NCBI RefSeq assembly: GCF_900636535.1
Contig: NZ_LR134289.1
Location: forward strand, 5,295,501 to 5,359,500
Origin: Chryseobacterium gleum
GTDB taxonomy: Bacteria; Bacteroidota; Bacteroidia; Flavobacteriales; Weeksellaceae
Reading direction: 5' to 3'
Length of the DNA stretch: 64,000 bases
Position 1 is the first letter of the stretch. Each line of letters opens with the position of its first letter. The notes beneath the pieces are model-generated. The model saw only the letters and a program-made list of their open reading frames with translations, did not search any database and was not told the origin of the DNA. This document shows positions 58,077-64,000 of this stretch, piece after piece. The position numbers and the translations under genes are program-made.

Positions 58077-58106
58077 TTGTGGGTTATTAAAAAGTTTATA
58101 CATTTG
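58077..58106 (+). promoter_or_regulatory. Promoter of the ilv operon
   Basis: TTG (58077-58079), exactly 19 nt and TACATTTG (58099-58106) fit the flavobacterial consensus fully. The first leader-peptide ATG begins 4 nt later. Confidence 0.8.
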
Positions 58107-58110
58107 CAGT

Positions 58111-58194
58111 ATGAATTTTACGAATCAGAAAAATATTATTGCCATTTCTATTATTGCTGTTGTCATTAACAACAGTAAGGAAACGGTATTGTAA
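58111..58194 (+). CDS. First ilv leader peptide (Ile/Val-rich)
   Basis: A 27-codon frame with IIAISIIAVVI in the middle (six Ile, two Val) and Val, Leu at the end. It starts 4 nt after the -7 box, so the transcript is probably leaderless. The last codons contain GAAACGG (58180-58186), a copy of the 3' arm of the next terminator. That copy can pair with the 5' arm CCGTTTC (58223-58229) when the ribosome stalls at Ile codons upstream (58135-58167). This is the geometry of classical attenuation. Confidence 0.85.
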   Translation: MNFTNQKNIIAISIIAVVINNSKETVL

Positions 58195-58221
58195 ACAGAT
58201 TTTAATTTAAATTATATATAG

Positions 58222-58251
58222 GCCGTTTCATATTTGAAACGGCTTTTTTTT
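58222..58251 (+). terminator. First ilv attenuator
   Basis: GCCGTTTCA-TATT-TGAAACGGC (9 bp) followed by eight T. The competing antiterminator pairs its 5' arm with 58180-58186. Confidence 0.92.
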
Positions 58252-58275
58252 GTTTTAATTTTAAGAATACAGAGT

Positions 58276-58332
58276 ATGTATCAGTTATTATCAGTAATTA
58301 TTATCGTCATTATTATTCCCTTGCGATTGTGA
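58276..58332 (+). CDS. Second ilv leader peptide (Ile/Leu/Val-rich)
   Basis: An 18-codon frame, MYQLLSVIIIVIIIPLRL, in which 12 of 18 residues are Ile, Val or Leu. It lies downstream of the first attenuator and upstream of the second. Its stop region TTGTGAGAAGG (58327-58337) can pair with TCTCAC and flanking C residues of the second terminator's 5' arm, giving an antiterminator with one mismatch. Confidence 0.85.
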   Translation: MYQLLSVIIIVIIIPLRL

Positions 58333-58362
58333 GAAGGAAGATGTATGACTGTACATATATTG

Positions 58363-58393
58363 AGCCCTCTCACAGCGTGAGAGGGCTTTTTTT
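58363..58393 (+). terminator. Second ilv attenuator
   Basis: AGCCCTCTCAC-AGC-GTGAGAGGGCT (11 bp) followed by seven T, 35 nt before the ilvE ATG. Confidence 0.93.
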
Positions 58394-58427
58394 ATTCCCG
58401 TTTGTTAATTTTTTTAATCTCTATAAC

Positions 58428-59300
58428 ATGTATTACAACGACGACACGACCATCTATTTTGACGGAAAATTTATGAAAGCGAAAGATGCCGGAACAGATC
58501 TTTACGGACAATCCTTACACTATGGCTATTCGGTTTTTGAAGGAATCAAATCTTACAACACAGATCACGGAACCAGGATTTTCAAAGCAAAAGAACATTA
58601 TGAAAGACTGAAAAGATCAGCAGAACTGATGCACATTCCCTTCGATTATTCTGTAAATCAGCTTACAGATCTAACCTATGAACTTTTGGAACGGAATGGG
58701 TTTACAGACGCTTATATCCGGCCATTGGTAACGTGCTCTCCCAATATGTCGCTTTCAAAAGGACAGAAATCTTACCTGTCTCTTCTTGCCTGGGAATGGA
58801 ATAACGGATATCTGGCAGATAAAATGAAAATCATGACTTCCCCTTTTCAACGTCCTAATCCTAAAGCTTTCAAGGTTGAGGCGAAGGTAGGAGGACATTA
58901 TGTAAACTCAATATTAGCCTGCCAGGATGCCAAAGACAAAGGCTATGATGAAGCGCTGGTATTGGATGAAAACGGAAATGTTGCCGAAAGTTCAGGGGCC
59001 AATGTCTTCTACGAAAAAGACGGGGTTTTGTATACACCGGCCAAAGGAAGTATTCTTCCGGGAATCACAAGACAAACCGTTATGGAGATTTGTCATGAGC
59101 TTGATATTCCGGTAAAAGAAACCTTCTTTAAACCAGAGGAAATGCGTGGCGCAGATGCCGGCTTTTTCTGTGGTACTGCAGCAGAAATTGTGGCTTTGGA
59201 TTCACTTGATGATATTCCTTTTACAAGAAACTGGGAAGACACGGCAAGCGGAAGAGTACAGCAGGCATATTTAAAATTGGTAAGAGTTCTGTCATTGTAG
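58428..59300 (+). CDS. ilvE: Branched-chain amino acid aminotransferase
   Basis: A 290-aa class IV PLP aminotransferase for the last step of Ile, Leu and Val synthesis. Motifs are HYGYSVFEGIKSY, EAKVGGHYVNSILACQDAKD (PLP Lys), VAESSGANVFYEKDGVLYTP and SILPGITRQTVMEIC. The ATG at 58428 (MYYNDDTTIYFDG) was chosen over a longer frame that crosses the second attenuator hairpin. It is the first structural gene of the ilv operon. Confidence 0.95.
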   Translation: MYYNDDTTIYFDGKFMKAKDAGTDLYGQSLHYGYSVFEGIKSYNTDHGTRIFKAKEHYERLKRSAELMHIPFDYSVNQLTDLTYELLERNGFTDAYIRPLVTCSPNMSLSKGQKSYLSLLAWEWNNGYLADKMKIMTSPFQRPNPKAFKVEAKVGGHYVNSILACQDAKDKGYDEALVLDENGNVAESSGANVFYEKDGVLYTPAKGSILPGITRQTVMEICHELDIPVKETFFKPEEMRGADAGFFCGTAAEIVALDSLDDIPFTRNWEDTASGRVQQAYLKLVRVLSL

Positions 59301-59480
59301 ATTTTTGAGATTTAAATATTTAATAATCAGATAAATATATGTATTTCATAAACAGTTGAATATTGTAATTTTTAAGAAAACTGAAAATGAAAAGAATATT
59401 ACAAAATGTAGTTTTGAATCAAAATTTAGTAAAAAACTTCAGTTTAAAGAGAAGAAAAGAATAGAAAATGCAGGATAAAT

Positions 59481-61163
59481 ATGTTAAATAAATATTCAAA
59501 AACATTCACGCAAAACAGTGAACAGCCCGCCGCCAAGGCCATGCTATACGGGATAGGATTTACAGAAGAAGATATGCACAAGGCTCAGGTGGGAATTGCC
59601 AGTATGGGCTATGACGGGAACACCTGTAATATGCATCTGAATGATCTTGCTCAGGTAGTAAAAAAGGGAACATGGAACCACGGATTAGCCGGATTGATTT
59701 TTAATACCATCGGCGTAAGTGACGGAATGAGCAACGGAACAGACGGAATGCGCTATTCCCTGGTAAGCCGTGATGTGATTGCAGACAGTATCGAAGCGAT
59801 CTGCGGTGCACAGTATTACGACGGACTGATTGCTCTGCCAGGCTGCGACAAAAATATGCCCGGAACCATAATCGCAATGGGAAGGCTAGACAGACCCTCC
59901 ATTATGGTGTACGGAGGAACTATTGCACCAGGCTGTTACAAAGGAGAAGCACTTAACATCGTTTCTGCTTTCGAAGCGTTGGGGAAAAAGATTGCAGGAG
60001 AAATCACTGAAGAAGATTTCGACGGTGTGGTGAAGAACTCCTGTCCCGGAGCTGGAGCATGTGGTGGAATGTATACCGCCAATACAATGGCTTCTGCTAT
60101 AGAGGCATTAGGAATGAGTCTTCCGTATTCCTCTTCCAATCCGGCCTTAAGCAAAGAAAAGCAGGAAGAATGTCTTGAGGCCGGAAAATACCTGAAAGTA
60201 CTTCTGGAAAAAGACATTAAACCTTCCGATATCATGACCCGTAAAGCATTTGAAAATGCACTTCGCCTTATTGTTATTTTGGGAGGAAGTACAAATGCTG
60301 TTCTGCATTTTATTGCCATGGCAAAAAGTGTAGGGGTTCCTCTTACTCAGGACGATTTCCAGAAGATGAGCGATCATACTCCGGTATTGGCAGACCTGAA
60401 GCCGAGTGGAAAATATCTGATGCAGGATCTGCATGAACACGGAGGAACCCCGGCGGTGATGAAATATTTACTGGAACAGGGATTACTGCATGGAGACTGC
60501 CTTACCGTCACCGGAAAAACAGTAGCCGAAAATCTGGCAGATGTTCCGGGGTTGGATTTTAATACTCAGAAAATTATAAAGCCACTTTCAGAACCTGTAA
60601 AAGCTACCGGACACCTGAGAATATTGTACGGAAACCTTGCGGAAAAGGGAAGTGTTGCCAAAATCACAGGAAAAGAAGGTGAGCGCTTTGTAGGGAAAGC
60701 CCGTGTGTTTGATGGCGAAAAAAATCTGATCAGAGGAATTCAGGATGGAACTGTACAGCACGGTGATGTTATTGTCATCCGTCACGAAGGCCCGAAAGGG
60801 GCGCCCGGAATGCCGGAAATGCTGAAGCCTACAAGTGCATTGATCGGAGCCGGTCTGGGAAGCAGTGTTGCTTTAATCACGGATGGAAGATTCAGTGGAG
60901 GAACCCATGGTTTTGTTGTAGGACACATCACACCGGAAGCCCATGAAGGAGGTCTGATTGCTTTTGTACACAATGATGACCTGATCGAAATAGATGCGGT
61001 AAACAATACCATACAGCTCAAAGTTTCAGAAGAAGAAATAGAAAGAAGAAAAAAAGGGTGGCAAAAACCTCCCCTTAAAGTACAGAAAGGATTGCTTTAT
61101 AAATATGCATTAACAGTATCATCAGCTGCAGAAGGCTGTGTAACGGACGAAATCACTCAATAA
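59481..61163 (+). CDS. ilvD: Dihydroxy-acid dehydratase
   Basis: A 560-aa iron-sulfur enzyme that dehydrates dihydroxy-acids to 2-keto acids in valine and isoleucine synthesis. Motifs are [27 protein letters not shown] (cluster Cys), [19 protein letters not shown] and [16 protein letters not shown]. The 180-nt gap after ilvE is AT-rich and holds only a weak 25-codon frame (59387-59464), not accepted as a gene. Its stop is 6 nt before ilvB. Confidence 0.96.
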
Positions 61164-61169
61164 AAGTAT

Positions 61170-62894
61170 ATGGAAAACCTGAATTTATCAACAGAAATAC
61201 AACTTACCGGAAGCCGGATCATTCTCGAAGCATTTCTGCAGGAAGGTGTAAAAACCGTTTTCGGATATCCGGGTGGAGCTATTATTCCTATTTATGATGC
61301 CCTTTACGATTATAAGGAAACACTGAAACATATTCTTGTACGCCATGAACAGGCAGCAGTACATGCGGCACAGGGGCTGGCAAGAGTATCAGGAGAAGTA
61401 GGGGTAGTGCTGGCAACCAGCGGTCCCGGAGCAACCAATCTTGTAACAGGATTAGCAGATGCGCTGCTGGATAACACTCCTTTGGTCTGTATTACAGGAC
61501 AGGTTTTTGAACATCTTCTCGGAACCGATGCCTTTCAGGAAATAGACGTAATGAACGTTACAAGTCCTGTTACCAAATGGAATTATCAGGTTACTGATGC
61601 CAATGAGCTTCCCGAAGTACTGGCAAAAGCATTTTACATTGCTAAGTCAGGTCGCCCTGGTCCTGTATTGATTGATGTGACTAAAAATGCCCAGCTTCAG
61701 TCTGTTGATTATAAAGGATATACTCCATGCCATTCATTGAGAAGCTATAAACCGGATCCCGAACCATGTTTTGAAAGTATTGAAAAGGCAATATCCTTAA
61801 TTAATGAGGCTGAAAGGCCATTTATTATTGCAGGACAGGGAATTATGCTGGGAAAAGCAGAAAAAGAATTTTTAGAATTTGCTGAAAAATCAGGAGTTCC
61901 TGTAGCATGGACTGTTTTAGGAATGAGTGCCATACCTACGAATCATCCGCAGGCTGTAGGAATGGTAGGAATGCATGGAAACTATGGTCCGAATATATTA
62001 ACCAACGAATGTGATGTTCTGATTGCTGTAGGAATGCGCTTCGACGACCGTGTAACAGGAAGACTGGATCAGTATGCAAAACAGGCAAAAATTATTCATC
62101 TCGATATTGATAAGGCAGAGATCAATAAAAACGTAAAAGTTGATGTTCCGGTTCTTGGGAACTGCAAACATACTCTTCCCCTTCTTACGGAAAGGATTGT
62201 AAAAAGAGAACATTATGCCTGGCATGAAAGATTTAAAAAATGCCACGAAGTGGAAAGCATCAATCTGATTCATACCGAGCTTTATCCCGATGAAGGAGAG
62301 ATTACGATGGGAGAAGTGATCCGTTATCTGAATGAAATGACACAAGGTGAAGCTATAATTGTGACAGACGTAGGACAGCATCAGATGGCAACATGCCGCT
62401 ACTCTCACTTCAAACATTCCAGAACCAATGTGACAAGCGGAGGCCTGGGCACTATGGGGTTCTGTCTTCCCGCTGCGATAGGAGCATCCTATGCGGAAAC
62501 CGGCCGGCCTGTTATTGCAGTGATGGGTGATGGAGGAGCACAGATGAATATTCAGGAGCTGGGAACCATTATGCAGTATCATCCGGAGGTAAAAATTTTA
62601 ATTCTTAATAATTGCTATCTGGGAATGGTGAGACAGTGGCAGGAATTGTTTCACGAAGAAAGATATTCCTCGGTAGATATTCAGAGTCCTGATTTTGTTC
62701 AGGTGGCAAAAGGATACAATATCCAGGGAAACAGGGTGTCTGAAAGAGAAGATCTGAAATGGGCCCTCCGTGAAATGCTTGATCATGAAGGCGCTTTCCT
62801 TCTTGAAGTGATGACAGGAAAAGAACACAATGTATTTCCGATGATTCCCCAGGGGAAAAGTGTTTCGGAGATTGTACTCAATAATAAAGTTTAA
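61170..62894 (+). CDS. ilvB: Acetolactate synthase large subunit
   Basis: A 574-aa ThDP enzyme, the first common step of the branched-chain pathway. Motifs are VFGYPGGAIIPIYDAL, HEQAAVHAAQGLARVSG (catalytic Glu), VLATSGPGATNLVTG, DRVTGRLD and the ThDP motif MGDGGAQMNIQELG with LNNCYLGMV. The N-terminal extension is short. Followed 10 nt later by the regulatory subunit. Confidence 0.97.
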   Translation: MENLNLSTEIQLTGSRIILEAFLQEGVKTVFGYPGGAIIPIYDALYDYKETLKHILVRHEQAAVHAAQGLARVSGEVGVVLATSGPGATNLVTGLADALLDNTPLVCITGQVFEHLLGTDAFQEIDVMNVTSPVTKWNYQVTDANELPEVLAKAFYIAKSGRPGPVLIDVTKNAQLQSVDYKGYTPCHSLRSYKPDPEPCFESIEKAISLINEAERPFIIAGQGIMLGKAEKEFLEFAEKSGVPVAWTVLGMSAIPTNHPQAVGMVGMHGNYGPNILTNECDVLIAVGMRFDDRVTGRLDQYAKQAKIIHLDIDKAEINKNVKVDVPVLGNCKHTLPLLTERIVKREHYAWHERFKKCHEVESINLIHTELYPDEGEITMGEVIRYLNEMTQGEAIIVTDVGQHQMATCRYSHFKHSRTNVTSGGLGTMGFCLPAAIGASYAETGRPVIAVMGDGGAQMNIQELGTIMQYHPEVKILILNNCYLGMVRQWQELFHEERYSSVDIQSPDFVQVAKGYNIQGNRVSEREDLKWALREMLDHEGAFLLEVMTGKEHNVFPMIPQGKSVSEIVLNNKV

Positions 62895-62904
62895 AAAATA
62901 AAAG

Positions 62905-63186
62905 ATGAAAACAGATCATAAAGAATATACCATTACAGCGTATACCGAAGATTATTTAGGATTGATCAGCCGCATCAATGCTATTTTTTCAAGAAGGAGA
63001 ATTTCTATGGTGACCTTTAATGTAGGCCCTTCGGAAATGGAAAAAGTAAAAAAGTTTGTCATCGTGATCAGAGAAACAGAAGATTCTGTTCAGAAAATCA
63101 GCAGACAGATGGAAAAACAGGTGGATGTTCTGGAAGTGCATTATCATAGAAATCCTTACCTGACGGCAGTAGAACATGCGAGCTAA
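62905..63186 (+). CDS. ilvN: Acetolactate synthase small (regulatory) subunit
   Basis: A 93-aa protein with one ACT domain (EYTITAYTEDYLGLISRINA, then SRRRISMVTFNVGPS). It lacks the C-terminal domain of longer IlvH forms, as is usual for single-domain IlvN types in Bacteroidota. It gives valine feedback sensitivity and full activity to IlvB. Confidence 0.9.
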   Translation: MKTDHKEYTITAYTEDYLGLISRINAIFSRRRISMVTFNVGPSEMEKVKKFVIVIRETEDSVQKISRQMEKQVDVLEVHYHRNPYLTAVEHAS

Positions 63187-63233
63187 GCTCAGAAATTAAA
63201 CATCATAATCAGTAATAAATAAAATCAAAAAAA

Positions 63234-64000
63234 ATGGCAAAATTGAATTTTGGAGGAGTAGAGGAGAATGTAGTAACAAGAGAAGAATTTCCGTTGGAAA
63301 AAGCTCAGGAAGTATTAAAAAACGAAGTCGTGGCAGTTATTGGATATGGAGTACAGGGACCAGGACAGGCGTTGAACCAGAAAGATAACGGAATTAATGT
63401 CATTGTAGGGCAGAGAAAAAACTCCAAATCATGGGATAAAGCAGTAGCGGACGGGTTTGTACCGGGAGAGACATTATTTGAAATCGAAGAGGCTCTGGAA
63501 AAAGGTACCATTATCTGCTATCTTCTGAGTGATGCCGCACAGATTGAATACTGGCCAAAAGTAAAACAGCATCTTACCCCTGGAAAAGCGCTGTATTTTT
63601 CACATGGTTTCGGGATTACATTCAATGAACGTACAGGAATTGTTCCTCCAGCCGATGTAGATGTTTTTCTGGTAGCACCAAAAGGTTCAGGAACATCATT
63701 GAGAAGAATGTTTCTGCAGGACAGAGGTCTGAACAGCAGTTTTGCCGTATATCAGGATGCTACAGGAAAAGCCAGAGAAAGAGTAACCGCATTGGGAATC
63801 GCGATAGGAAGCGGGTATCTGTTTGAAACCGACTTTAAAAAAGAAGTATACAGTGATCTTGCCGGTGAACGTGGAACACTGATGGGTGCTGTACAGGGAA
63901 TATTTGCCGCTCAGTACGATGTATTGAGAAAAAATGGACACAGTCCTTCGGAAGCTTTTAACGAAACCGTAGAAGAATTGACGCAGTCATTAATGCCTTT
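63234..64000 (+). CDS. ilvC: Ketol-acid reductoisomerase, 5' part (runs off the window)
   Basis: ATG at 63234 opens a frame still open at the window end (255 codons visible). It converts acetolactate to dihydroxy-isovalerate using NADPH. Visible parts are VVAVIGYGVQGPGQALNQKD (Rossmann GYGVQG), GQRKNSKSWDKAVADGF, HGFGITFNERTGIVPP, DVFLVAPKGSGTSLRRMF, DLAGERGTLMGAVQGIFAAQY. The DLAGERG box carries metal-binding Asp and Glu. The 3' end lies beyond the window. Confidence 0.97.
   Translation, partial: MAKLNFGGVEENVVTREEFPLEKAQEVLKNEVVAVIGYGVQGPGQALNQKDNGINVIVGQRKNSKSWDKAVADGFVPGETLFEIEEALEKGTIICYLLSDAAQIEYWPKVKQHLTPGKALYFSHGFGITFNERTGIVPPADVDVFLVAPKGSGTSLRRMFLQDRGLNSSFAVYQDATGKARERVTALGIAIGSGYLFETDFKKEVYSDLAGERGTLMGAVQGIFAAQYDVLRKNGHSPSEAFNETVEELTQSLMP

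Follow-up and report, generated by a model that had tools for sequence, protein, structure and literature searches.

Why would the short gap in front of a branched-chain amino acid operon hold two leader peptides and two terminators? The question is raised by a 64,000-nucleotide stretch (hereafter the window) of the 5.6-Mb chromosome of Chryseobacterium gleum, in which the gap between the end of folP (58060; presumably folP, judging from its sequence) and the start of ilvE (58428) carries on the plus strand, in this order, a promoter, peptide 1, terminator 1, peptide 2 and terminator 2 (Table 1). A preliminary description of this DNA had proposed these pieces, together with copies of the terminator arms near the peptide ends, and all of them are found in place or within a few bases of it. 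They form two complete units, each made of an Ile/Val-rich peptide, an antiterminator strand (S2) that copies the 3' arm of the terminator, and the terminator itself (arms S3 and S4); both units follow one predicted promoter, which in sequence is the arrangement of tandem attenuators. We consider it very probable that these are two ribosome-mediated transcription attenuators working in series, leading from a single promoter to ilvEDBNC-ilvA. The parts, their conservation, the alternative pairing, the geometry and the order of the units can be read from the sequence and its comparison with relatives. Beyond what had been described before, the units turn out to be of different design, the transcript is predicted to begin at the start codon of peptide 1, and other Bacteroidota share the arrangement, some with as many as three units.

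Table 1. Predicted features of the leader and the operon (window coordinates unless a locus is named)
Feature	Position	Strand	Details
Promoter, sigma-A, Bacteroidota type	58077..58106	+	TTG 58077-58079, 19 nt, TAnnTTTG 58099-58106; called from sequence
Leader peptide 1	58111..58194	+	MNFTNQKNIIAISIIAVVINNSKETVL; ATG 58111, TAA 58192-58194
Hairpin across last Val/Ile codons of peptide 1	58154..58178	+	10 bp, loop CATTA
S2 of unit 1	58180..58187	+	GAAACGGT; antiterminator strand, copy of terminator 3' arm; GAAACGG at 58180-58186
Terminator 1	58220..58251	+	S3 GCCGTTTC 58222-58229; S4 GAAACGGC 58236-58243; U-run 58244-58251
Leader peptide 2	58276..58332	+	MYQLLSVIIIVIIIPLRL; ATG 58276; TGA 58330-58332, inside S2
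S2 of unit 2	58329..58337	+	GTGAGA-A-GG; overlaps TGA of peptide 2
Short hairpin in antiterminator loop of unit 2	58340..58361	+	p=0.015 in window
Terminator 2	58362..58393	+	S3 GAGCCCTCTCAC 58362-58373; S4 GTGAGAGGGC 58377-58386; U-run 58387-58393
ilvE, branched-chain aminotransferase	58428..59300	+	first structural gene of operon
ilvD, ilvB, ilvN, ilvC	59481..63998	+	ilvC runs past window end
ilvA	L252:791-2053		downstream of ilvC, beyond window

The operon and its promoter

The genes behind the leader, which we take from their protein families (and, for ilvE, from the operon context) to be those named in Table 1, stand in the order ilvE-ilvD-ilvB-ilvN-ilvC-ilvA, and their products make Ile and Val. 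No leu gene follows ilvA, the next long ORFs lying on the opposite strand. The closest named relative of the window's IlvE is that of C. flavum, at 98% identity. Terminator-like sites between 57500 and 59000 number three, against 0.9 +/- 1.0 in shuffled sequences, and two of them are terminators 1 and 2. Rfam, which includes T-box and amino-acid leader families, gave no match at gathering score between 50000 and 64000.

The predicted promoter sits close to the first peptide. The two-unit clade to which the window belongs supplied 78 distinct leaders; in 77 of them the box (TAnnTTTG in 73, TAnnTTTA in 4) ends 4 nt short of the first ATG, and in 75 a TTG stands 19 nt 5' of the box. In Flavobacterium psychrophilum the TAnnTTTG box occupies -12 to -5 according to passages of PMC9723704, which together with the 4-nt gap places the predicted transcription start at 58111, that is, at the ATG itself. 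Peptide 1 is thus predicted to be leaderless, with the 5' end of the transcript at its own start codon; the same passages put leaderless mRNAs at only 5.5% of those examined in F. psychrophilum. The spacing differs in two leaders (L091 and L236), where the box lies, by eye, about 20 nt 5' of the first ATG.

Conservation within Chryseobacterium

A search of 148 genomes of the genus with IlvE as query provided 103 loci from 102 genomes (L001, L003-L104) with a close or a 54%-identical ilvE, the fragmented matches of two further genomes (G063, G124) being left out. The remaining 44 genomes had a remote aminotransferase only; without a close ilvE, they may lack the ilv operon. Our detector called two units at 72 of the 103 loci, one at 29 and none at two that are cut by contig ends; L014, counted among the 29, shows both units by eye, leaving 28 single. 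Unit 1 was missed by the detector in L014 and L181, and L161 is incomplete in the stretch analysed. The set of 78 distinct leaders leaves out five of 127 leaders, three cut by contig ends (L008, L070, L175) and two missed by the motif (L030, L193).

Across these 78 leaders, the core of peptide 2 has a mean pairwise identity of 0.972; the arms of terminator 2 reach 0.98-0.99 and those of terminator 1 0.95 and 0.88, whereas the spacer from terminator 1 to the second ATG has drifted to 0.505. Peptide 1, at 0.870 against 0.816 for the spacers within units, is slightly better kept than these, and it is peptide 2 that stands out: its end reads I-I-I-P-L-x-x-TGA in 78 of 78 leaders. Codon choice is equally restricted. 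The Ile codon ATA accounts for 3 of 472 Ile codons in peptide 2 and 1 of 429 in peptide 1, as opposed to 177 of 1149 (15.4%) in the long ORFs of the window, so both sensors use ATT and ATC, presumably the codons of the main tRNA-Ile. The Ile/Val codons, whose conservation in relatives had been proposed as a test, are kept. Peptide 2 had also been characterised as mostly Ile/Leu/Val; as a sensor it fits Ile and Val better, since the invariant core is III-PL preceded by V-III-V and most Leu codons are N-terminal or beside the stop. We judged a Leu sensor unlikely, given an operon without leu genes and few Leu codons among the last sensor positions.

The arms are nearly invariant in this clade and consequently show little covariation in RNAalifold, although in terminator 1 one base pair varies in both partners (G-C in 57 and A-U in 14 of 73). 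In two loci of the genus set, L104 (G081) and L091 (G140), the ilvE is one of 54% identity and the leader ahead of it has two units, resembling that of other Weeksellaceae (L123-L130). In G081 this ilvE lies on another contig besides the usual operon, which suggests horizontal transfer.

Alternative pairing and ribosome geometry

An attenuator requires that S2 compete for S3. In the window, S2:S3 pairing reaches -12.1 kcal/mol in unit 1, with none of 300 dinucleotide shuffles as good, and -10.5 kcal/mol in unit 2, with 8 of 300 as good. Of 230 distinct units, many of them related to one another, 72% pair better than dinucleotide shuffles at p<0.05 and 48% at p<0.01. The detector also returned wrong-frame and false units, and a low Ile/Val score led us to discard 11 of 384 candidates, among them L230 unit 2, which is real by eye. 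In a hand-picked set of 18 serial lineages with 38 units, which includes relatives and is thus not a set of independent cases, S2:S3 pairing has p<=0.05 in 29 units and p<=0.01 in 17. The nine units above 0.05 belong to L250 (both units), to L246, L249, L277 and L301 (later units) and to L123, L162 and L247 (first units); many single units, too, pair no better than shuffles (the L073-L089 clade, L105-L109). Over the stretch compared, two leaders are present in duplicate in the collections (L162 = L237, L243 = L296).

On average, S2 also pairs better with its own partner: the mean is -10.8 kcal/mol, against -8.1 when partners are swapped between the units of one leader, a comparison that includes the near-identical units of L162 and L236. 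In four lineages (L064, L079, L247, L301) at least one direction of the swap yields pairing no weaker than that with the own partner. The stems themselves vary by lineage (GCCGTTTC, GCCTCCCG, GCCACTTC, GCCATCC) while the pairing persists, which amounts to covariation on a large scale; arm pairing, the other feature whose conservation had been put up for comparison, is thus retained although the stem sequences change from genus to genus, apart from the exceptions given above.

We regard the distance between sensor codons and S2 as the strongest sign in the sequence that these are switches read by ribosomes. In 32 of the 38 units S2 starts 10-14 nt past the last Ile/Val codon, compared with 6.6 expected from shuffles, the other six falling outside this range. 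In the close clade it starts 11 nt past the last Ile/Val codon in 72 of 73 pattern-matched first units (of the 78 leaders) and 11 nt past the last Ile codon in all 78 second units; with S2 defined from the duplex, the usual spacings are 12 and 11, respectively. A ribosome with the stall codon in its A site covers roughly 10-14 nt downstream. Coverage of 12-15 nt from the P site is given in a passage of PMC3641672. The spacing thus approximates the reach of the ribosome, such that a ribosome stalled at the last sensor codon would just leave S2 free, as expected from the earlier proposal that the arms are placed to form an antiterminator upon stalling at branched-chain codons, while a ribosome at the stop codon would cover it.

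Complete folds favour the terminators in both units (-15.8 against -12.7 kcal/mol for the antiterminator in unit 1, -26.0 against -17.7 in unit 2), so that the antiterminators would have to win by being made first. We found no strand 1 that would sequester S2 in either unit: the hairpin of unit 1 adjoins S2, and that of unit 2 is weak. Such a strand, which in E. coli trp holds strand 2 when no ribosome is present, is not known to occur in all attenuators, and we do not take it as defining them.

Two designs of unit

The two units are not copies of one design. The hairpin across the last Val/Ile codons of peptide 1 has -10.8 kcal/mol in the window, with none of 200 shuffles as low. Since it does not overlap S2, we read it as a candidate pause hairpin that might hold RNA polymerase and let the ribosome catch up. 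RNAalifold predicts no structure there in the close-clade alignment, whereas folding of single sequences does. Among lineages with units in series, a hairpin over the last Ile/Val codons before S2 is present at p<=0.05 in the first units of 12 of 18 lineages as opposed to the later units of 3 of 17 (this set of 18 lineages, likewise hand-picked and with relatives in it, differs from the pairing set in one row, L250 versus L230), and the window's own unit 2 is one of those three, with a weak fold of -2.1 kcal/mol (p=0.045). The single unit ahead of ilvD in Flavobacterium has the hairpin as well (L154, L157; L160 at p=0.055). The stop codon follows the same division: 16 of 17 first units end in TAA or TAG, 18 of 19 later ones in TGA. 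In the window, S2 lies before the stop in unit 1 and on the stop in unit 2, an arrangement that is common, not general: in six leaders (L064, L079, L165, L243, L246, L247) the S2 of the first unit touches or follows the stop, and in three (L133, L165, L249) a later S2 lies inside the peptide gene. The short hairpin in the antiterminator loop of the window's unit 2 was considered as a general trait of later units and rejected, as the other later units did not fall below 0.05.

Distribution beyond the genus

An IlvD search of the family matched 55 of 120 genomes; 37 were examined, the other 18 comprising nine of the genus and nine remote matches. The detector called two units in 11 of the 37, among them an ilvD-first operon with different stem sequences (g21, L133-L136); Weeksellaceae other than Chryseobacterium are among the carriers of two units. 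We also examined 25 named loci that fall outside the close clade: the detector called at least two units in nine, and L230 and L235 have them by eye. Series are recorded for Flavobacterium beibuense, F. supellecticarium, Flavobacterium sp. LE19 and SUN046, Aequorivita xiaoshiensis, Pontibacter indicus and MAGs. In samples from the order and the class, series occur in 2 of 16, 1 of 13 and 3 of 40 loci (L298, called as two units by the detector, shows no series by eye and is left out; L296 repeats L243), and the detector found no unit in 31 of these 69 loci. Flavobacterium also has a single unit ahead of ilvD.

Three units are present in Aequorivita (L236) and in one Flavobacterium lineage (L162 and L237, with the same leader). 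In all three of these loci, units 2 and 3 closely match each other and their stems are almost identical, which indicates that a regulatory unit was recently duplicated in tandem.

When the two-unit state is mapped onto an ilvE tree of 97 rows, it requires 10 changes, compared with a mean of 26.4 when shuffled, with counts for L235, L240 and L230 set by hand and L227 and L231 left out for length. Judging from these sequences, the state is clustered on the tree, yet it has been gained or lost several times. Some of the changes are detector misses (L181, perhaps L130), and ilvE itself may have moved between species.

Mechanism and alternative explanations

We infer translation, stalling, termination, pausing and the multiplication of stages as follows. 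With ample charged tRNA-Ile and tRNA-Val, the ribosome would reach each stop codon and cover S2, S3 would pair with S4, and RNA polymerase would halt at terminator 1 or, having escaped it, at terminator 2. Upon shortage of Ile or Val, the ribosome would stall with its front edge just short of S2, which would then take S3, and no terminator would form. Since the operon would be read only when both terminators are passed, the two read-throughs should multiply, giving deeper repression and a wider range; the response could also be sharper in series, as the preliminary description had supposed. Purely as an illustration, a stage going from 0.1 to 0.8 changes 8-fold alone, and two such stages change 64-fold. 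Nothing sequesters S2 in the absence of a ribosome, and so an untranslated leader may read through by default, which, if true, would be the opposite of E. coli trp. The order in which the designs recur, with a hairpin and TAA/TAG usually in the first unit and one or more later units without the hairpin and with S2 usually on TGA, would fit a more specific scheme that we hold tentatively, as possible but short of probable: an old relay, present in several lineages of the Bacteroidota, with two designs in fixed order, the first fitted to the start of transcription (a short or absent 5' leader and a pause hairpin by which the first ribosome could catch up and default read-through of untranslated RNA would be prevented), and the later, hairpin-free units serving as gain stages, of which there may be 0, 1 or 2 as units are duplicated or lost in evolution.

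Several other explanations have to be weighed against a working series. One is that a single unit does the work, its neighbour being a relic or acting as a constitutive terminator. Relatives with one unit do exist, as in the 28 genus loci and ahead of ilvD in Flavobacterium, and in L240, from the three-unit Flavobacterium lineage, the third unit has lost its stop and has no detected terminator; a relic in the window's clade should decay, however, whereas both peptides, both sets of arms and both terminators are kept in 78 distinct leaders around a drifting inter-unit spacer, which makes this improbable. Even less likely is the presence of two promoters with one attenuator each and hence no series. 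TAnnTTT without the final G does occur within 45 nt before the second ATG in 48 of 78 leaders, a raw count of the kind that AT-rich DNA may give, but the full TAnnTTTG is absent from these 45 nt in all 78, and the last T-run lies a mere 9-25 nt (median 12) from that ATG. That the pieces are chance products of AT-rich intergenic DNA, which would yield Ile-rich frames and hairpins, can practically be dismissed: ATT is indeed common in such DNA and wrong-frame and false units were returned by the detector, but the comparison refutes this explanation through conservation, codon choice, arm pairing and spacing alike.

A further explanation, compatible with a series, concerns what the units sense, the first perhaps answering Ile and Val and the later mainly Ile, so that together they would act as a logic gate and not as an amplifier. 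Over 17 lineages, the last ten sensor codons before S2 comprise 80 Ile, 28 Val and 5 Leu in first units and 119 Ile, 22 Val and 5 Leu in later ones, a Val share of 28/113 and 22/146, and the later peptides of L236 have no Val at all. Both kinds of unit are nevertheless rich in Ile and Val, and most later units, such as that of the window with V-III-V-III, keep Val, so they differ from first units by degree; we find such a gate unlikely, though less so than the explanations above. Two attenuators in series thus remain our preferred reading. They would constitute a natural series circuit whose stages answer identical or overlapping signals. Relatives have one, two or three stages, and the way in which stages combine (the product of read-throughs, steepness, noise) could be compared across natural leaders. 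They would also add a regulatory layer in a phylum for which we found little on amino-acid attenuation.

Relation to known systems

Classical amino-acid attenuators are those of trp, his and ilvGMEDA in enteric bacteria, and trpL of Sinorhizobium meliloti is leaderless. The ilv leader resembles the classical cases in having peptides rich in regulatory codons and an antiterminator opposed to an intrinsic terminator ahead of a biosynthetic operon, but classical attenuators are known as single units, whereas here two or three stand in series with no strand sequestering S2 when the peptide is untranslated. Attenuator-type relatives include ilvBNC of Corynebacterium (PMC11857589) and peTrpL, the leader peptide of the S. 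meliloti trp attenuator (PMC7298713). The latter is like ilv peptide 1 in that the ATG is (here by prediction) at the 5' end of the transcript, but it belongs to another phylum and to a single trp attenuator. As far as the passages of PMC3641672 go, Salmonella mgtCBR is similar in that its leader holds a pair of ORFs that both act as attenuators. It departs from the ilv leader in that mgtM answers ATP and mgtP proline, additively, whereas the signals here coincide or overlap; its stem-loops are unlike intrinsic terminators and its genes are not biosynthetic. The tandem riboswitches of B. clausii metE, as described in passages of the same paper, likewise combine two serial sites in a single leader, both of which should work as intrinsic terminators, but there the RNA senses two different metabolite signals directly, with no leader peptide. 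Two leader peptides appear in the translational attenuation of ermB, to judge from the title of a paper, and the phrase 'two attenuators' in a text on msrD. In F. psychrophilum, passages of PMC9723704 report 'strong clues' of leader-peptide attenuation 5' of amino-acid operons and in themselves name no operon and no series. Among the openly available papers listed in our searches, we found none describing a biosynthetic operon with serial attenuators for one and the same signal; an earlier notice is possible.

Other operons of the same genome

The same search applied to other amino-acid operons of this genome found one unit each for his (peptide MKPTFLALHHYHHHLC; L315:3592-3790) and trp (peptide MNNNNWWWLSNSSSGLKVLSCC; L317, minus strand), so that attenuation appears to be used elsewhere in the genome and, among the operons examined, in series at ilv only. 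A probable thr leader peptide ends in the Thr run TFTTTTTTP and has a less clear terminator (L316:2125-2227), and a crude look 5' of leuA revealed no leader unit. The stretch before leuA (L318:8046-8186) is 80% similar over 143 nt to the stretch between ilvE and ilvD (59301-59480), which also resembles DNA close to ilvE or ahead of it in four relatives (L094, L095, L096, L099; 71-74%). The copies occur in both orientations in the sequences as retrieved and represent a repeated element; in the same four relatives a single attenuator lies about 450-700 nt 5' of ilvE. Finally, a leuA-like HMGL domain in the window's genome (L318, G000:C1:622198-623003) is split across two frames, reflecting a frameshift either in the gene or in the assembly.
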